From an uncultured Acidimicrobiales bacterium (GTDB lineage: Bacteria; Actinomycetota; Acidimicrobiia; Acidimicrobiales; SZUA-35), in the NCBI GenBank assembly GCA_937997485.1, contig CALKTH010000001.1, positions 1 through 64,000 of the forward strand: DNA of 64,000 nt. Reading direction: 5' to 3'. The notes below the pieces were generated by a model. That model ran no database searches, was not told where the DNA came from, and saw only the letters and a list, made by a program, of their open reading frames with translations. Below are positions 52,888 through 62,372 of the stretch, in pieces (position 1 is the first letter of the stretch; every line of letters starts with the position of its first letter). The translations under genes were made by a program, and so were the position numbers.

Positions 52888-54957
52888 ATGACCACCGAGC
52901 GACCTCGTTGGCAGTCGATTCTTGCCGTCGCTGCGTTCGTGGCGACGCTGGCCGCCACGCTTCTCGTCTTTGCCGAAGATCGCATCTTTGACGCCGACTC
53001 GTTTGCGACAACGGCAACGGCAACGCTCAGCGACCCCGGAGTCAACGACTACCTGGCCGAGAAAATCAGCGAAGCGTTGATCGAGCAGGTTCCCGATCTG
53101 GCAATCGGCGGCCCAGTCCTCACCGAAGTGACCGGGGCCGTGCTCCAGTCACCACCTGCGGCGCGTGTGGTCGAGGCCTCAACCCGAGAAACGCACCGAG
53201 CCGTTTTCGAGCGCTCCGAGAACACGCTCGCCCTCCAACTCTCTGATCTTGTCGTCTCGATCGACCAGGCACTCACAGCCGTCAGCCCCGACCTCGCCGC
53301 AGCGATACCCGAAGAGGTGAGCACGCTCTCGGTCGAGATCAGTTCTGGCGAGTTTGCTGCCGACGCTGTGCGGCTGGCCGAACGAGTTCGAATACTCACC
53401 TTCCTGCTCGTCGCCGTGGCAGCACTGCTGCTCGTTGCGCTCGTCGTGGTCGAGGGGCGGATCTTCGCTGGCCTCACTCGCATGGGGCTCGTGGTGGCGT
53501 TGGTTGGCCTGTTTCTCGTCGTCTCTCGTGGTGTCGGCGCCACGGTGTTGTCGTCCTATGGCAGCACGCCCCTCGAGAGCGCCGCACTCGCCGGCGCGTG
53601 GAACGTCGTGCTCGGCGATCTGGCCACGTGGGGCTGGGTCATGATCGTGATCGGCGCCATCTCCGCCAGCCTCGGCTGGGCCGTCGGCGAGGCTGGCCGT
53701 CTCGACGCCAGTCTTCGGGGCCTCCTCGCTCACGTCCACTCAGAACCTTCCACTCCCGTCGGCCAGGCAGCCCGGGGTGCCGCGCTTTTGTCGCTGGCGT
53801 GGTGGGCGTTGGTCGCGCCGGGCTCGTTGCTCGAGGCCGCGGTGAGATGCGCTGGACTCGCACTTGCGATCGTTGTGCTGGCCCGGTTCATCGAGCAGTC
53901 CGGTATCGCAGAGTGGCTGAAGAGTCGGGAGCCCGAGCCCAGTGCGGTGGTCTCGCCACGATCACTGGCGGCTCGAGCCGCGCTCCCTGCCCTGATCGTG
54001 CTGGGCCTCGGCGTCGTCGGGGTTCTGTTGCTCTCGCAGAATGACAATGCCTCTGCCTTGTTCGACCCAGACGCGTGCAACGGACACGTCGAGCTCTGTG
54101 AGCGGCCGCTGGACGAGGTCACCATGGCCGCCTCGCACAACGCAATGTCTTCAACGGCGACCGGCTTCTACCTTCCCAATCACCTCAGCACGATCCGAGC
54201 CCAGCTCGATCACGGCGTTCGAGCCTTCATGATCGACACCGTGTACGGCCGGCCGGCAACGAACGGCACGATTCGCACAGAGCTCGATCTGGTCGACGTC
54301 GACAGCTTGGACAGCGAAGCGCTCATTGCTGCCGAGGCCGTCCGGGCGCGGCAGGGTGCCGACCTCGGCGATCGAGGGGTGTACCTCTGCCATGGCTTTT
54401 GCGAGATCGGGGCTCTCGACGCCGTCGACGAGATGCGCTCGTTTCGATCCTGGCTCGACGACAATCCTCGTGAGGTCGTGATCTTCCTCGTCCAAGACGC
54501 GACCGCACCTCAGGACACCGCCGCACTGTTCGTAGAAGCGGGATTCGAGGATCTCGTCCTCACCCAGGATCTCGACGCACCGTTTCCCACACTCGCCGAG
54601 ATGATCGACACCAATCGCCGGGTGTTCGTGATGGTCGAGGAAGACGGTGGGGACGTCGAGTGGCTGCATCCAGCGTTCGAGTTCAGCCAAGAGACACCGT
54701 TCAGCTTCGCCTCAACCGGGGAGTTTTCGTGTGCTCCAAACCGGGGAGATGCGAGTTCCCCGCTGTTCGTGATCAACCACTTCATCACCCTTGCTCGCCC
54801 GAGCAACCAGCGCATCAACAGCAGCGAAGAACTCAACACACGCGTTGCTGATTGCGAGCGCGAGCGGGGCCTACAACCGAACCTCATCGCCGTTGATTTC
54901 GCCACAAAAGGCGAGGTCATGGCCGTTGTTGATGCCCTCAACGGCGTGGGCGACTGA
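52888..54957 (+). CDS. Multi-pass membrane protein with exterior PI-PLC-like domain
   Basis: 689 residues. The N-terminal 410 residues have about six membrane helices (first at 9-28, then pairs around 166-215, then 245-265 and 300-330, and one before the exterior domain, ALPALIVLGLGVVGVLLL). The C-terminal 280 residues look like the X region of PI-specific phospholipase C: TMAASHNAMSS (first His), VRAFMIDTVYG and LCHGFCEIG (second His), then PREVVIFLVQDA. It is probably a lipid-headgroup phosphodiesterase facing outside. The combination is uncommon. Confidence 0.78.
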   Translation: MTTERPRWQSILAVAAFVATLAATLLVFAEDRIFDADSFATTATATLSDPGVNDYLAEKISEALIEQVPDLAIGGPVLTEVTGAVLQSPPAARVVEASTRETHRAVFERSENTLALQLSDLVVSIDQALTAVSPDLAAAIPEEVSTLSVEISSGEFAADAVRLAERVRILTFLLVAVAALLLVALVVVEGRIFAGLTRMGLVVALVGLFLVVSRGVGATVLSSYGSTPLESAALAGAWNVVLGDLATWGWVMIVIGAISASLGWAVGEAGRLDASLRGLLAHVHSEPSTPVGQAARGAALLSLAWWALVAPGSLLEAAVRCAGLALAIVVLARFIEQSGIAEWLKSREPEPSAVVSPRSLAARAALPALIVLGLGVVGVLLLSQNDNASALFDPDACNGHVELCERPLDEVTMAASHNAMSSTATGFYLPNHLSTIRAQLDHGVRAFMIDTVYGRPATNGTIRTELDLVDVDSLDSEALIAAEAVRARQGADLGDRGVYLCHGFCEIGALDAVDEMRSFRSWLDDNPREVVIFLVQDATAPQDTAALFVEAGFEDLVLTQDLDAPFPTLAEMIDTNRRVFVMVEEDGGDVEWLHPAFEFSQETPFSFASTGEFSCAPNRGDASSPLFVINHFITLARPSNQRINSSEELNTRVADCERERGLQPNLIAVDFATKGEVMAVVDALNGVGD

Positions 54958-55183: not shown

Positions 55184-56497
55184 ATGACAAACGCAGAGAT
55201 CTTCCACGCCCGAGAATCGGGCGTGCGAAGCTATTGCCGATCGTTCGATGCGGTCTTCACACGAGCTCACGGCAGCGTCGTGGAGGACGAGACCGGAAGA
55301 GAATTCATCGACTTGCTGGCTGGTTGTTCATCACTGAACTACGGCCACAACGATCCAGACATGACCGACGCCCTGGTGGCGCACATTCAGAGCGGTGGGC
55401 TTTCGCTTGCACTCGACACCTACACCGATGCGAAGCGCAGCTTCCTCGAGACGTTCACACAGCGCATTCTCGAACCACGACAGATGCCTCACCGTGTGCA
55501 CTTCACGGGTCCGACAGGTGCCAACGCAGTCGAAGCAGCACTGAAGTTGGCTCGGAAGGTCACGGGCCGCAGCAGCGTGATTGCTTTCACGAACGGCTTC
55601 CACGGCTGCACACTCGGGGCGTTGGCGGCGACCGGCAACCAGCACCACCGGATGAACCTGCCGCTTCCTGGCATCGCACGAGCGGCCTTTGACGGCTACT
55701 TCGGACCTGACGTCGACACGGCGGGGATGCTGGAACAGCTGCTCAACGACCCGTCCAGCGGGTTCGATCGCCCGGCGGCGATCCTCGTTGAGACGGTCCA
55801 GGGCGAGGGTGGCCTCAACGCCGCCTCCGCCGGCTGGCTCCGCAAGATCAGCGCGTTGGCCGAGCGCCACGGCGCGCTGATGATCGTCGACGACATCCAA
55901 GCTGGCTGCGGCCGCACCGGTTCCTTCTTCAGCTTCGAGACGCTCGGCTTCATGCCGGACATGATCACGATGTCGAAGTCCCTCTCGGGATTCGGACTGC
56001 CGTTTGCGCTCATGCTCATGCGTCCAGGCATCGATCAGTGGACACCGGGCGAACACAACGGAACGTTCCGGGGCAACACCCACGCCTTCGTCACTTCCAA
56101 GGTCATGCTCGACAAGTTCTGGACTGATCGGGCATTCGAAGACACCATCGGTCGCCGAGCATCGATCGTCGCCGACGGCCTCACCCGTATGCAGATGCTC
56201 GTCCCTGGTTCTCGGTTGAAGGGTCGCAGCATGATGCGTGGCCTCGAGGTACCAACAGGTGAGCTGGCATCAGAAATCTGCCGTCAGGCCTTCGAACTCG
56301 ACCTCATTCTCGAGACGTCTGGTGCCCGGGGACAGGTCGTGAAGATCCTTGCGCCGCTGACCACGCCGGACGAGCTGCTTCTCGAGGCCTTTGATCGGCT
56401 CGAAGAAGCAACGCGGCGAGCGCTGGCATCGCGGGCGATGGAGCCCTCCGTGGCCGACACGGTCATCGAGCTCCGCGCCGTCGACGTTCTCAGCTGA
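55184..56497 (+). CDS. ectB: EctB-type diaminobutyrate-2-oxoglutarate aminotransferase
   Basis: 437 residues, class III PLP aminotransferase. The PLP lysine is Lys265 in MSKSLSGFGLPF and the cofactor Asp236 is in IVDDIQAGCGRTG; FTGPTGANAVEAALKLARKVTGR and FHGCTLGALAATGN are characteristic of EctB and related L-2,4-diaminobutyrate aminotransferases rather than of acetylornithine enzymes. It should convert aspartate semialdehyde and glutamate to L-2,4-diaminobutyrate. There is no ectA or ectC nearby, so ectoine is not the likely product. Followed after 16 bases by the NRPS, so the two are co-transcribed. Strong GAGGGG site upstream of ATG 55184. Confidence 0.85.
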   Translation: MTNAEIFHARESGVRSYCRSFDAVFTRAHGSVVEDETGREFIDLLAGCSSLNYGHNDPDMTDALVAHIQSGGLSLALDTYTDAKRSFLETFTQRILEPRQMPHRVHFTGPTGANAVEAALKLARKVTGRSSVIAFTNGFHGCTLGALAATGNQHHRMNLPLPGIARAAFDGYFGPDVDTAGMLEQLLNDPSSGFDRPAAILVETVQGEGGLNAASAGWLRKISALAERHGALMIVDDIQAGCGRTGSFFSFETLGFMPDMITMSKSLSGFGLPFALMLMRPGIDQWTPGEHNGTFRGNTHAFVTSKVMLDKFWTDRAFEDTIGRRASIVADGLTRMQMLVPGSRLKGRSMMRGLEVPTGELASEICRQAFELDLILETSGARGQVVKILAPLTTPDELLLEAFDRLEEATRRALASRAMEPSVADTVIELRAVDVLS

Positions 56498-56513
56498 AAC
56501 TGGCTGAGGCGAC

Positions 56514-59500
56514 ATGACAATTACAGACGAGCGGCTCGAGGCTGCGCCCGCGAACAACGCGTTCGTCCTCGAGCGCACGGACCGATCCAACGCTCCCCGG
56601 CATCAGATCGGGGAGCGCCTCCACCATCTCTTCGAGCAGCGTTGCGATGAGCATCAGATCAACGCTGCGACGTCGGACGACGCGACCGAGCCACTCGCAG
56701 TCGTGAGTCCCACGGGTGAGTGGAGCTTCGGCGAGCTCGACCGATTGGCGAATCGCATCGCCCACTGGTTGCTTGCCGAGGCAGTTCGGCCGGGAGATCA
56801 CGTCGGCGTTGTGCTCGGTCGATCGGCCGACACCTACGCGACGCTGCTCGCGATTTCGAAGATCGGTGCGGTCTTTGTGCCCATGGATGCCTCCTTCCCG
56901 GTGGACCGTGTCGACTTCATCTGTGAGGACTCCGGCGCCGACGTGCTCGTCACGAACGAGGCGGGGGCGGTCAACCTCGAGGGCGCTGCGGCTCGGCTGC
57001 TGATTGTCGATCAGCTCGATCAGTGTTCGCTTCCGTCGCACCGACCAACCGAGTTTGAGGTTGGACCGATGGTCACCGAGCGGAGCTATGTCATCTACAC
57101 CTCAGGATCCACAGGCAAGCCCAAGGGTGTGCCGATCAATCAGGACAGCATCTGCAACTTCGTTCGCGTGGCCGCTGAGGAGTACGGCTACATTGAGGAA
57201 GACCGCGTCTACCAAGGGCTCACCATCGCGTTCGACTTCAGCGTGGAAGAGATCTGGGTGCCACTGCTGGCCGGCGCGGCGCTCGTGCCCAACGAGACCG
57301 GCGCCAGCCTCGTCGGCGACGATCTCACCCGATTTCTCGAACAGCATCAGGTGACCGCGCTGTGTTGTGTCCCCACCTTGCTGGCCACCGTCGACCCTGG
57401 TCTGGACAAACTCCGCTTGCTCATCCTGTCCGGCGAGGCATGCCCCTCGGAACTCGCTGCCCGCTGGCACCGATCGGGCCGTCGCATTCTCAACGCGTAT
57501 GGTCCGACCGAGACGACGGTGACTGCGACGGTCGCCGTTCTGGAGCCAGACGAGACGTTGACGATCGGCCAGCCGCTCCCTACCTACAGCATCGTGATCC
57601 TGGATCCGGACCACCCGGAAGTGCTGGCGAAGGGTGCGGTGGGTGAGATCGGCATCGCTGGCATCGGCGTGTCGCCCGGTTACCTCAACCGGCCGGAGAA
57701 GACCGCGGCCGCGTTCGTTCCAGACTTCCTCCACCTGCCGAACAACCCGACCGGCCTCATCTATCGCTCCGGTGATCTCGGCCGGATCAACGACGACGAC
57801 AATGTCGAGTACCTCGGACGAATCGACACACAGGTGAAGATCCGGGGCTACCGGATCGAGCTCATCGAGATCGAGTCCGTCTTGCTCCAACTCGATGGCA
57901 TCGCCCAAGCAGCTGTCGAGGTCTTCGAGCGTCGTCCAGGGCACAAGGAACTCGTTGCCTACTACTCCCTGACCGAGCAAGCTCGACGAGACGCAGAACG
58001 CAACCCGAACTCAGGGCGTGACGCCGACATTGCTGCCCACCTTCGCCAAGCGCTTCCGGCCTACATGGTGCCGAGCCAGTACGAAGAACTTGAAGCGCTG
58101 CCACTCTTGCCAAGCGACAAGGTCGACCGCAAGGCCCTGCCCGCCCCCTCCCTGCAACGCCTCGGCTCCACGAACGAGGTGGTGCCACCAGAGACGGAGC
58201 TCGAAGAACACGTTGCCGCCACGCTGGCTGACCTTCTCGGGCTGGAGGAAGTCTCCGTCGTCGACAACTTCTTCGACGACTTCGGTGCCGACTCGCTCAC
58301 GATGGCTCAGCTGGGCACCATCATTCGGACCGATCTCGACATCGCCGATTTCGAGATGCGTGACCTCTACGCATATCCGACCGTGCGCGCCTTGGCAGAG
58401 CGACTGGAGACTGCCAAAGCAGAAGGTCTCGTCGCGGTCGTTCGAACCGACGACACCCACATCGCCTCCACCTTCTCCTACATCGCGTGCGGCGTGGCAC
58501 AGATCGTCGGCGGTGCCATCTACGGCGCATCGGCACTCGCGTTCGCTGTGTGGCTCGCCCATTGGACGGTGGACGGCAGCGGCTTCGCAGAGGTGTACCA
58601 GCGAGCCTTCCTCGCGTTCGGGGCGTTCTTCGTTGCGCTCTCCGTCGTTCCCATCTTGTTGAAGTGGGCGCTCATCGGCCGCTGGAAGGAGGAGACGTTC
58701 CCGATCTGGGGCTGGAAGTTCTTCCGCTACTGGTTCATCAACCGCGCCGTCGCTGTGTCGCCCGCCGGCCGCATGGTGGGCACGCCCCTTCAGATCGCTC
58801 ATCTCAAAGCACTTGGGGCAGACATCAGCTGGAACGCGGTCATCCAGACAAAGAGCCCACTGTGCACCGACCTGATCTCCATTGGCGACGAAGCGGTTGT
58901 CATGAGCGGTGCGCTCCTCAACGGTCATGAGGCGATCAGCGGCCGCATCCACACCGGACCCGTTTCCATCGGTGACCGGGCCTTCGTCGGGATGGGCAGC
59001 GCGCTCGGCATCGGCACCGCGGTCGGAAACGACGCCCAGCTCGCCCACGCGTCTGCTCTCCTGCCGGGGCAGGCCATCCCGGACGGCGAGCGGTGGCATG
59101 GAGCGCCAGCGGAGCCCACCTCCACCGATCATCGGGTTGTGCACGGCGGTTCGTCCAGCGTGCGCCGACGCGTGACCTACAGCGCGATGATCCTCTCTTG
59201 GATCTGCTTCGTCACCGGGCCCCTGTTGCTCATCGTGCTCGATCTCGCCGTAGCACTCGGCCCCGCTGACATCGCCGCAGCGCTCGGCTCCGGCCGGATC
59301 GCCCAAGCGTTGGTGATCGCCGGTCTCGCCACGGGCTTCTTCTTCAGCACCATCGTCTTCGCCTTCGTCTCAAAGATGATCGTTCCTCGGCTCGCGAACC
59401 GGTTCATCGTCCCTGGCATCGAGTACCCGCTGTACGGCTGGCGCTACGCCCTGAATCGGTCCGTTCGAACTCGCTCCAACTCCAAGTTCTTCAACGACCT

Positions 59501-60614
59501 TCTTGGCGACAGTTCTGCCATCCCCCACTACCTCAGCATGGTGGGCCTGCGAGTTGACCGAACGGTGCAAACAGGCTCGAACTTCGGCACCACACAGAAG
59601 TGGGACAACCCGTTCCTCACCCAGTTCGGCGCTGGAACGATGGTCTCGGACAACCTCAACTGCGGGAACACGAACTACTCCCCCGGCAAGTTCGCGGTCC
59701 ATCCCGTCGTGATCAAGGACGACAACTTCTTCGGCAACAACCTCCAGATTCCCGTTCGACACACCGTCGGGAACAACGTCCTGCTTGCGACCAAAGCGAT
59801 GTTCCCGATCGACGGTGATCGGCGAGAGAACGTGGGCCTTCTGGGTAGCCCCGCCTTCGAGATTCCTCGATCGGTCGAACGAGATCGGGAGCAAGAGCGC
59901 TATCAGGATCCCGACGTTCTTGCCGAACAGCTTCGACGGAAGCTCCGCCACAACATCGGTTCGATGGCCATCTTCGTCGGCGCCCAACTCACCTTCTTCA
60001 TCAGCGCGATCTTGATTCTGGTTGGCCTCTACGGCATCGTCGGCCTGTCATCAACGCAGACCGCGTTCTTCGGCTCCTATCTGCTGTTCCCTCTGGCCCT
60101 CGTCTACTTCACGGCGCTCGAGTGGGTCATGCTTGGCTTCCGGCGACTCCAGCCCCGATCGTGCTCGATCTATGACGAGTACTTCTGGAGTCATGAGCGG
60201 TTCTGGAAGGTGCTCGGGCTCCGTCCGTGGATCGCTCTGGCTGGCACCCCACTGCGCGGCCTGGGGTGGCGCCTGCTCGGCATGCGGGTGGGCAAGAAGC
60301 TGTACGACGCCGGCGCGCCGGCCCCTGAAGCCTCGCTCGTCACCATTGGCGACCACTGCACCATCAACCGCGGCGTCGTCATCCAAGGTCATTCGCTCGA
60401 GGACGGCGCGTTCAAGAGCGATCACATCGTGATTGGCGATCGCTGCAGCCTGAGTAGTGACTCTTTCATCCACTACGGCACCGAGCTGGGAGCCGGCACC
60501 GAGATCGCACCTTCCTCCTTTGTCATGAAGGGTCAGGTTTCTGCCCCCAATTCGCGTTGGGAAGGCAACCCGGCGGCTCCCGCAATGGTGCGGCACGATC
60601 GTATTTGCGACTAG
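56514..60614 (+). CDS. Pls/PosA-type nonribosomal peptide synthetase (A-T-membrane/LbH)
   Basis: 1366 residues. Adenylation domain 30-545: YTSGSTGKPKG (195-205), DFSVEEIWV (241-249), NAYGPTE (327-333), YRSGDL (417-422), GRIDTQVKIRGYRIEL (435-450) and the catalytic lysine in SDKVDRKAL (534-542). Carrier domain about 560-630 with phosphopantetheine Ser594 in DDFGADSL. Then membrane helices (655-720), an LbH-like block (745-870), helices (about 920-990), a second LbH block (1060-1130), helices (1180-1235) and a last LbH block (1310-1345). The pocket has Asp241 in the position of GrsA Asp235 and an acidic Glu245 in the position of GrsA Trp239, as expected for a diamino acid. Likely polymerises or transfers diaminobutyrate. 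No condensation or thioesterase domain is present. Confidence 0.87.
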   Translation: MTITDERLEAAPANNAFVLERTDRSNAPRHQIGERLHHLFEQRCDEHQINAATSDDATEPLAVVSPTGEWSFGELDRLANRIAHWLLAEAVRPGDHVGVVLGRSADTYATLLAISKIGAVFVPMDASFPVDRVDFICEDSGADVLVTNEAGAVNLEGAAARLLIVDQLDQCSLPSHRPTEFEVGPMVTERSYVIYTSGSTGKPKGVPINQDSICNFVRVAAEEYGYIEEDRVYQGLTIAFDFSVEEIWVPLLAGAALVPNETGASLVGDDLTRFLEQHQVTALCCVPTLLATVDPGLDKLRLLILSGEACPSELAARWHRSGRRILNAYGPTETTVTATVAVLEPDETLTIGQPLPTYSIVILDPDHPEVLAKGAVGEIGIAGIGVSPGYLNRPEKTAAAFVPDFLHLPNNPTGLIYRSGDLGRINDDDNVEYLGRIDTQVKIRGYRIELIEIESVLLQLDGIAQAAVEVFERRPGHKELVAYYSLTEQARRDAERNPNSGRDADIAAHLRQALPAYMVPSQYEELEALPLLPSDKVDRKALPAPSLQRLGSTNEVVPPETELEEHVAATLADLLGLEEVSVVDNFFDDFGADSLTMAQLGTIIRTDLDIADFEMRDLYAYPTVRALAERLETAKAEGLVAVVRTDDTHIASTFSYIACGVAQIVGGAIYGASALAFAVWLAHWTVDGSGFAEVYQRAFLAFGAFFVALSVVPILLKWALIGRWKEETFPIWGWKFFRYWFINRAVAVSPAGRMVGTPLQIAHLKALGADISWNAVIQTKSPLCTDLISIGDEAVVMSGALLNGHEAISGRIHTGPVSIGDRAFVGMGSALGIGTAVGNDAQLAHASALLPGQAIPDGERWHGAPAEPTSTDHRVVHGGSSSVRRRVTYSAMILSWICFVTGPLLLIVLDLAVALGPADIAAALGSGRIAQALVIAGLATGFFFSTIVFAFVSKMIVPRLANRFIVPGIEYPLYGWRYALNRSVRTRSNSKFFNDLLGDSSAIPHYLSMVGLRVDRTVQTGSNFGTTQKWDNPFLTQFGAGTMVSDNLNCGNTNYSPGKFAVHPVVIKDDNFFGNNLQIPVRHTVGNNVLLATKAMFPIDGDRRENVGLLGSPAFEIPRSVERDREQERYQDPDVLAEQLRRKLRHNIGSMAIFVGAQLTFFISAILILVGLYGIVGLSSTQTAFFGSYLLFPLALVYFTALEWVMLGFRRLQPRSCSIYDEYFWSHERFWKVLGLRPWIALAGTPLRGLGWRLLGMRVGKKLYDAGAPAPEASLVTIGDHCTINRGVVIQGHSLEDGAFKSDHIVIGDRCSLSSDSFIHYGTELGAGTEIAPSSFVMKGQVSAPNSRWEGNPAAPAMVRHDRICD

Positions 60615-60701
60615 TCGAGCCGACTTTTCAAGCAATCGATGCGATGACTCCCCGGGGAGTCGTACCTCCGCCTTCTAGGTCAGTAGGCCCTTCCTAGGAT
60701 C

Positions 60702-60714
60702 GTCATCTGATGAC
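60702..60714. promoter_or_regulatory. GTCATC-T-GATGAC dyad
   Basis: Perfect 6-bp inverted repeat in the 202-base gap before the hydroxylase-like gene, near an AT-rich stretch (TTTGCCGACAACATTTATG). Possible operator or start-site element. The rest of this gap shows no gene. Confidence 0.4.
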
Positions 60715-60816
60715 AGTTGTTTGCCGACAACATTTATGTCATTCTGGCTGATGCGGCGGGTCTGAGGGAGACCCGAGAGGTAGCGGGTCCTCATTCGAAC
60801 CCGGGCGTGGTGGTTT

Positions 60817-61806
60817 GTGCGGATATTGAAGAGTCGGGTTGATGCGCTGGTTTTCGGCGCGCTTGTTGTCCTGGGTCTGGTGCTGATGGCGCCACTGGTT
60901 GGTTTGTCCAACCCCATTGCGACGGTATTGACGGACATTTTCGGAACCAGGATCGTGCTGATGCTCGCTCCGGCTTCCATCGTTGTCTGTGCAGCGATCT
61001 TTACGTTGGAGCGATGGATTCCTGCGGTTGATCAAGAGCAGTTCGGTCCGGGCTTTGCCCAGGATGCGGTTTACTTCTTCATCAGCCAGCCATTCGCCTG
61101 GTGGGTGTTTGCGGCGACGGCGCCAGCAACGTATCGATGGGCTGACGCCAATGCCAGCTGGATCATCTTCGATCAGGCAAAGTCCTGGCCCATTTGGCTG
61201 AGCGGCGGCATTGCGTTCTTGATCGCGGACTTTCTTTTCTGGGCGCGGCACTACGCACGCCACAAGATTCCACTGCTGTGGCGCTTCCACGAGGTGCACC
61301 ACTCACAGACCGAATACAACCTGTTCACGGACCGACGCGTGCACCTGATGGACACGCTGGGCAGCAAGCTCCTCGGATGGGTTCCGCTGCTGGTTGTTGG
61401 CCCTGACCTTCGTTCCTACAGCGTTCCCGTGGCGGTCGCCGGCCTGATCGTCGGCTGGTATCCGATCTTCTATCACGCCAACGTGCGAACCAACATGGGG
61501 CCCCTGCGCTACCTCATCATCACGCCGCAAACCCACCGGATCCATCACTCGCGAGAACTGAAGCACTACGACACGAACTTCGGTCTCTACCTGTCGATCT
61601 GGGACCGCATGTTCGGCACCTACTCTGGTGATGACGGCGACTACCCCCAGACCGGCGTGGCCGGGTCAACGCTTCCGATGGAAACCAGCCGCCACCCCAT
61701 CGATCTCGTCAAGACCTACGTCGCTCAATTCGTGCACCCCTTCAAGCGTCGGAGTCCGGCCTTAGAGGAAGAGCGCAAGCCAGAGGTTTTCGCCGAGGCC
61801 CACTGA
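60817..61806 (+). CDS. Sterol desaturase / fatty acid hydroxylase family membrane protein
   Basis: 329 residues from GTG 60817. Eight conserved histidines around a di-iron site: HYARHK, FHEVHHS, HANVR, THRIHHS, and HYDTN, with four to five membrane helices. Family members hydroxylate or desaturate a lipid chain or sterol. Being downstream of a Pls-type NRPS suggests that it modifies a lipid to which the peptide is attached, or serves as an unrelated neighbour. Its own leader of 202 bases suggests it may be transcribed separately. Confidence 0.85.
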   Translation: MRILKSRVDALVFGALVVLGLVLMAPLVGLSNPIATVLTDIFGTRIVLMLAPASIVVCAAIFTLERWIPAVDQEQFGPGFAQDAVYFFISQPFAWWVFAATAPATYRWADANASWIIFDQAKSWPIWLSGGIAFLIADFLFWARHYARHKIPLLWRFHEVHHSQTEYNLFTDRRVHLMDTLGSKLLGWVPLLVVGPDLRSYSVPVAVAGLIVGWYPIFYHANVRTNMGPLRYLIITPQTHRIHHSRELKHYDTNFGLYLSIWDRMFGTYSGDDGDYPQTGVAGSTLPMETSRHPIDLVKTYVAQFVHPFKRRSPALEEERKPEVFAEAH

Positions 61807-61811
61807 GCCGA

Positions 61812-62372
61812 TCAGCGAATGTGAGCGAGCCTGGCCCGGAGGCGGAGCAGTCCGTCCCGGATCCGGCGTTTCACCGTACCGACCGGTAGTCCGAGAAGGC
61901 GGGCCACTTCGATGTAGGTGTGGTCGCCGAAGAACGCCAGCACGATCGCCTCGCGCTGCTTGTCGCTCAGTACGTCGAGTGCCTCGACGAGCGAGTCACC
62001 GTCGAGTCTGACCAAGACATCCTCGGCGATGAAGACGTCCTGCTGCGGTTCACGAAGAAGCGCTCGCAACTCACGTCGTTGCTGCGCCTGCTCGGACCGA
62101 ATGCGATCGATCGTCCGCCGGCGAGCAATGGTGGCGGCGAACCCACACGGATTCCCCGTCAACCAGTCGACCCGATCGGCCTTTCTCCACACCTCGAGCA
62201 TCACGTCCTGCACGATCTCCTCCGCGGAACTCGGCCATGTTCCGAGCGAGCGCCGAACCGTTCCAGCAACTGCCACCAGAAGTTGGTCGTGCCACCGTTC
62301 GAATTCGTCTCGAGCCGAATCCAGCGTCGCCCTGCTGGAGGTGCGAGCTCTCGGTCTCTCCACTGCAGTCAT
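61812..62372 (-). CDS. ECF-type sigma-70 factor
   Basis: 186 residues. Region 2: RRSLGTWPSSAEEIVQDVMLEVWRKADRV with the following RRRTIDRIRSEQAQ; region 4: LSDKQREAIVLAFFGDHTYIEVARLLGLPVGTVKRRIRDGLLRLR with the helix-turn-helix. The linker has a short acidic stretch (RLDGDSLVEAL). No anti-sigma gene follows on this strand. Ends 5 bases from the convergent hydroxylase-like gene, so it is probably not part of that locus. The upstream gap to 62557 shows no gene. Confidence 0.88.
   Translation of the reverse strand: MTAVERPRARTSSRATLDSARDEFERWHDQLLVAVAGTVRRSLGTWPSSAEEIVQDVMLEVWRKADRVDWLTGNPCGFAATIARRRTIDRIRSEQAQQRRELRALLREPQQDVFIAEDVLVRLDGDSLVEALDVLSDKQREAIVLAFFGDHTYIEVARLLGLPVGTVKRRIRDGLLRLRARLAHIR

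Follow-up and report, generated by a model that had tools for sequence, protein, structure and literature searches.

The locus studied here raises the question of what an EctB-type aminotransferase makes, and for which partner, when it lies directly upstream of a membrane-bound synthetase of the Pls/PosA family. The window, i.e. the whole stretch of 64 kb that was analysed, contains three open reading frames at the positions reported in a preliminary description of this DNA, the first two being separated by 16 nt. This gene content is observed directly, while the domain folds given below are predictions. The features are as follows:

55184..56497, forward strand: EctB-type L-2,4-diaminobutyrate (DAB):2-oxoglutarate aminotransferase, 437 aa (NF006733, PF00202), PLP lysine K265
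56514..60614, forward strand: membrane-bound single-module NRPS-like synthetase of the Pls/PosA family, 1366 aa (TIGR02353), proposed gamma-poly-L-DAB synthetase
56514..58160, forward strand: adenylation (A) domain, with specificity residues at the spacing of the published PosA pocket (AlphaFold model)
58212..58406, forward strand: peptidyl carrier (T) domain, with the attachment serine S594 in FGADSL (PF00550, 39.9 bits, residues 567-631)
58461..60611, forward strand: terminal polymerisation domain, predicted as three times a long membrane-helix pair followed by a left-handed beta-helix/hexapeptide-type soluble domain (TIGR02353, AlphaFold)
60817..61806, forward strand: membrane protein of the FA_hydroxylase/sterol-desaturase superfamily, 329 aa, GTG start (PF04116), judged to be outside the pathway

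The first gene, preceded by an SD-like GAGGGG, encodes a class III aminotransferase of EctB grade: in profile searches, its product reaches 584 bits against NF006733 (cut-off 438) and 226.8 bits against PF00202, retains the PLP lysine, and scores 541 bits against the ectoine EctB equivalog TIGR02407, slightly below the cut-off of 552. It is the single EctB-grade aminotransferase of the source genome. The absence of an ectoine pathway is likewise an observation: neither ectA nor ectC was found within the 64-kb window, ectA was not found in the genome (top score of 22 bits for a cut-off of 120.6), and ectC occurs once, as a distant orphan on another contig with unrelated genes alongside (G000:C54:11188-11565, loci L001 and L149). 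Since the genome is devoid of ectA, has a single EctB, and carries ectC as an orphan elsewhere, this EctB stands outside any ectoine operon, as the preliminary description had claimed, and the linkage of ectA and ectC to ectB that marks ectoine biosynthesis is missing. One could still imagine that the enzyme serves ectoine synthesis together with the ectC of the other contig, its position beside the synthetase being incidental, but the missing ectA, the unrelated surroundings of ectC, the conservation of the gene pair in relatives, and the retention of a separate ectAB by Rhodobacter xinxiangensis (see below) make this extremely unlikely. While belonging to the same aminotransferase subfamily as the EctB of the ectoine pathway, the present enzyme therefore differs from it by the lack of ectA/ectC neighbours, and appears to be dedicated to the synthetase.

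The product of the second gene proves to be of the Pls type, as previously claimed, since it scores 558 bits against TIGR02353, over the curated cut-off of 423, through residues 659-1354. Pfam detects an AMP-binding (244.6 bits) and a PP-binding (39.9 bits) domain and, combined with AlphaFold, yields the architecture of the Pls/PosA family, namely a single A and a single T domain, six membrane helices in three pairs, three soluble domains, and neither C nor TE domain. In the AlphaFold model of residues 650-1366 (pLDDT 90, pTM 0.90), three repeats are predicted, each made of two long helices and a short-strand domain, and the top PDB matches, which are weak, are hexapeptide-repeat acyltransferases. 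This model agrees with the family description in PMC10522769, according to which no structural information existed for that domain. With Pls, the epsilon-poly-L-lysine synthetase, the protein shares the domain order, the TIGR02353 terminal domain, and the match of the A-domain model to the Pls structure 7wew, whereas lysine-type relatives carry another specificity code (DAESIGTVVK) and their terminal domains are 20-27% identical to the one studied here, compared to about 40% identity to the PDAB-like clade. The A domain is 48-56% identical to that of synthetases often neighboured by DAB aminotransferases.

This distance of the terminal domain from the lysine-type enzymes would also suit a synthetase that loads DAB but yields short oligomers, or links DAB to another acceptor such as lipid, cell wall, or alcohol, all the more as stand-alone T-terminal proteins that pair with NRPSs are among the nearest terminal-domain relatives, and as the epsilon-PL synthetase is able to esterify its product to alcohols (PMC9606270). 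However, the full A-T-terminal architecture is that of the characterised homopolymer synthetases and the predicted terminal fold is intact, and we consider such an outcome improbable. As for the stand-alone proteins themselves, they comprise a T and a terminal domain without A domain (about 840-950 aa) and are found at L057, L056, L037, L068, L200 (G726), and many Streptomyces loci. Downstream of them lies a distinct NRPS that brings an A domain of its own (code DIWQSTADDK in the cases read), and often a PALP-family enzyme as well; the terminal domain at the present locus is closer to theirs than to that of Pls.

With regard to the carrier domain, the source genome (93% complete) yielded a phosphopantetheinyl transferase of the AcpS type only, no Sfp-type N-terminal domain being found in it. 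The carrier motif FGADSL is similar to that of acyl-carrier proteins, and AcpS may therefore modify the carrier domain of the synthetase.

The specificity residues of the A domain, read directly from the translation, are D241, F242, E245, C284, I304, S306, A328, V336, T337, and K536, giving the code DFECISAVTK. D241 and the residues at offsets +1, +4, +43, +63, +87, +95, and +96 from it correspond to PosA residues 217, 218, 221, 260, 280, 304, 312, and 313, and since this spacing equals the published one, the mapping is free of gaps. The pocket Asp and Glu of code positions 1 and 3 are D241 and E245, the latter aligning with Glu221 of PosA, which bears out the earlier claim of an acidic residue suited to a side-chain amine, and code position 2 is occupied by Phe (F242), as in the PDAP/PDAB class. 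According to PMC10522769, the Asp and Glu are conserved in every such synthetase, the Glu of PosA binds the amine of the side chain, and chain length is governed by the residue at position 2, which is Ala in enzymes for lysine, Met in that for ornithine, and Phe in those of the PDAP/PDAB class. The AlphaFold model of the A domain (pLDDT 88) matches the PosA structures 8g95-8g98 with a TM-score of 0.91-0.92 (of target) and an rmsd of about 2.5 Å. Compared to PosA, the delta-poly-L-ornithine synthetase of Acinetobacter baumannii, the fold and the spacing of the pocket Asp/Glu are thus the same, but Phe replaces Met218, Ala replaces Thr304, and Thr replaces Ser313, the A domains are 34% identical, and no EctB partner is mentioned in the available part of the PosA description. 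A lysine-type polymer was rejected, as both the code and the synthetase tree disagree with it. These comparisons support a pocket that would fit a short diamine, with a code consistent with the poly-DAP/poly-DAB class.

Within this class, the choice of DAB has to be weighed against a different diamine, short or of the beta type (2,3-diaminopropionate or beta-lysine), and against a mixture, the DAB made by EctB being then one substrate among several. In PMC10522769, the synthetases for poly-DAP, poly-DAB, and poly-beta-lysine fall into a single group that sequence separates poorly, and the position-2 Phe is common to PDAP and PDAB enzymes; besides, weak adenylation of DAB was also reported for a poly-DAP A domain (PMC4668381). 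Nevertheless, the conserved partner, both within the family and across several lineages, is a DAB aminotransferase, and no PALP homologue of the tested kind occurs in the 64-kb window, so that such a substrate or mixture has, in our view, a low probability.

The conservation of this partnership was observed in a search of 397 genomes of the same order, in 8 of which the terminal domain exceeded the cut-off, including three genomes of the same family besides the source genome. In these three, EctB (61-63% identical to the one at 55184-56497) lies directly upstream of the synthetase at 4/4 intact loci, a fifth synthetase locus ending at a contig edge; the stop and start codons of the two genes overlap as ATGA in two of the four. 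Among the four synthetases, the code DFECLSAVTK occurs twice, and DFECLSVVSK and DYEALSLVSK once each. A further partner gene common to all same-family loci was sought and none was found. Likewise, neither ectA nor ectC adjoins the pair in any relative examined and the pocket fits a short diamine, so that the two findings named in advance as arguing against DAB polymerisation, these genes beside the aminotransferase in relatives or specificity for an unrelated amino acid, were not encountered.

Farther away, the synthetase of R. xinxiangensis shares the full code DFECISAVTK with the one at 56514-60614 and is preceded, at 15 nt, by an EctB, which is a dedicated copy since a separate ectAB is present elsewhere. 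Synthetase-linked EctBs, with no ectA exceeding the cut-off, also occur in Geminicoccaceae, Arthrobacter, a bog actinomycete, and a Hyphomicrobiales MAG, while Pseudonocardia, Amycolatopsis, Blastococcus, and Streptomyces have a Dat-type aminotransferase instead, often with an aspartate kinase. Among synthetases like the one at 56514-60614, and counting aminotransferases within the retrieved stretch, a DAB aminotransferase (EctB- or Dat-type) accompanies 14 of the 21 whose code has Ser at position 6, but none of the 13 that have Gly there (Fisher p = 1.6e-4, a value inflated by shared ancestry). The R. xinxiangensis arrangement, the same-family loci, and the partnership with DAB aminotransferases thereby support DAB as the probable substrate. 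The earlier proposal that an EctB outside an ectoine operon feeds a Pls-type synthetase gains support from the poly-DAP/poly-DAB code and from the persistence of the pair in same-family genomes and, at a greater distance, in Alphaproteobacteria.

Several other loci of this comparison may be mentioned. The A-T-terminal synthetases of Brucella and other Hyphomicrobiales carry the code DFE[AC][LM]G[ST]VTK without a DAB aminotransferase, and a GNAT acetyltransferase and an Sfp-type phosphopantetheinyl transferase lie downstream at 11/11 such loci (L063-L066, L076, L082, L084, L085, L111, L112, and L122). An M28-family peptidase adjoins PDAB-like synthetases at L096 and L113, and at L069 and L114 at about 34%; by analogy with PldII, it might be a polymer-degrading enzyme of self-protection. 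Finally, L054 (G600) has a PDAB-like A domain (DFEYNGTVTK, 47% identical) with the T-terminal part in a different frame, perhaps owing to a frameshift or to two genes.

Taken together, these data make it probable that the two genes form an operon for a polycationic isopeptide, gamma-poly-L-DAB, of which we infer the substrate, the product, the linkage, the stereochemistry, and the export. Judging from its family, EctB would convert L-aspartate-beta-semialdehyde and glutamate into L-DAB, which the A domain would adenylate with the alpha-amine on D241 and the gamma-amine on E245, F242 shortening the pocket. The DAB would then be loaded onto the carrier serine S594, and the membrane terminal domain, with its three soluble beta-helix domains predicted between six helices, would join DAB units iteratively, most likely via the gamma-amine, giving gamma-poly-L-DAB. 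The L form is proposed because no PddB-like racemase lies nearby: no DapF-like racemase was found in the 64-kb window, and the single DapF-type gene of the genome is on another contig. A D-DAB polymer was rejected on the same ground.

The preliminary description had stated that no such locus was known in this bacterial group. In this form the statement has to be corrected, as the same arrangement is present in other members of the family, and poly-DAB synthetases associated with a DAB aminotransferase were already on record: PMC8117764 (Fig. 1C, legend) describes pldA/pddA clusters with DAB aminotransferase and aspartate kinase genes (dat, ask). In the gamma-poly-L-DAB cluster of Streptomyces celluloflavus, pldA is found with dat and ask; in the gamma-poly-D-DAB cluster of Streptoalloteichus hindustanus, pddA is found with pddB and further pdd genes, PddA and PddB being described in PMC8225329. 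Compared by cluster architecture alone, these systems share with the present locus an A-T-terminal synthetase and a neighbouring DAB aminotransferase, and the aspartate kinase beside the aminotransferase in many of the actinobacterial clusters retrieved here is a further likeness to them. The present locus differs by its EctB-type enzyme, theirs being of the Dat type as deduced from dat-ask-synthetase loci, and by its two genes only, without DapF-like racemase and without aspartate kinase, for which no match was obtained within the 64-kb window. The lack of this kinase, although it is not an essential feature of such clusters, and an AcpS-type transferase as the only one found in the genome count against the poly-DAB reading. 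The present data add a compact version with EctB, found in this actinobacterial family as well as in Alphaproteobacteria, of which no published description was found in a literature covered in part.

As to the history of the pair, EctB and synthetase trees were built without the same-family loci L195-L199. In the EctB tree, the EctB at 55184-56497 and the EctB linked to the R. xinxiangensis synthetase form a pair (95/91), which groups with the ectoine EctB of R. xinxiangensis (100/99) and not with the ectoine EctBs of the order studied here. In the synthetase tree, the PDAB-like clade first gives off the synthetases of the two organisms, in either order. The simplest reading, given here with the caution that long branches call for, is that the pair may have been transferred between the actinobacterial group and Alphaproteobacteria; base composition shows no genomic island at the locus. 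In addition, the EctB-type and Dat-type groups found beside such synthetases are separate in the EctB tree, and repeated recruitment is therefore argued for. A more far-reaching proposal, which must be seen as speculative and rather unlikely as a whole, would be that two or more lineages recruited EctB from ectoine synthesis into a polycation cassette of two genes, minimal and self-sufficient, which moved between the actinobacterial group and Alphaproteobacteria, the product of this deep branch, polymer or acceptor-linked, differing in its chemistry from the gamma-poly-DABs known so far.

Polycationic isopeptides, which are rare among natural products, find use as antimicrobial, antiviral, and cell-penetrating agents. 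In this context, the ectB-synthetase pair of a poorly studied actinobacterial family and of Alphaproteobacteria widens their known range and provides small cassettes for heterologous production, and the link between Ser at code position 6 and an adjacent DAB aminotransferase provides a testable rule by which poly-DAB enzymes could be separated from their close relatives.

The third gene was also proposed as a member of the locus. Its product scores 97 bits against FA_hydroxylase (PF04116) with 3/3 His boxes, but fails as an OlsE ornithine-lipid hydroxylase (102 bits against NF052566 for a cut-off of 475). That all three genes belong to one pathway, the hydroxylase-like protein modifying the polymer or a membrane carrier, would be in line with the common strand, the intact His boxes, the distance of 202 nt, and the absence of a terminator signal exceeding chance between the synthetase and this gene. 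Scans of the locus for promoters and terminators yielded nothing that exceeded chance. Nevertheless, no homologue lies beside the synthetase at any of 80 loci or of a further 8, which include the 5 same-family synthetase loci, and the homologues of related genomes (28-43% identity) are located elsewhere. A three-gene pathway thus seems very unlikely, and the hydroxylase at 60817-61806, left out because it is not conserved beside the synthetases of relatives and lies 202 nt from the pair, is probably not part of it; of the three genes expected together in related genomes, the ectB-synthetase pair recurs and the hydroxylase never does. This gene is convergent with that of a SigK-like ECF sigma factor (61812-62372, reverse strand). 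On the other side of the pair, 52888-54957 encodes a membrane protein whose C-terminal part, without Pfam match, resembles a PI-PLC-like hydrolase; in the same-family locus L195, a homologue (39%) follows the synthetase at a distance of about 3 kb.
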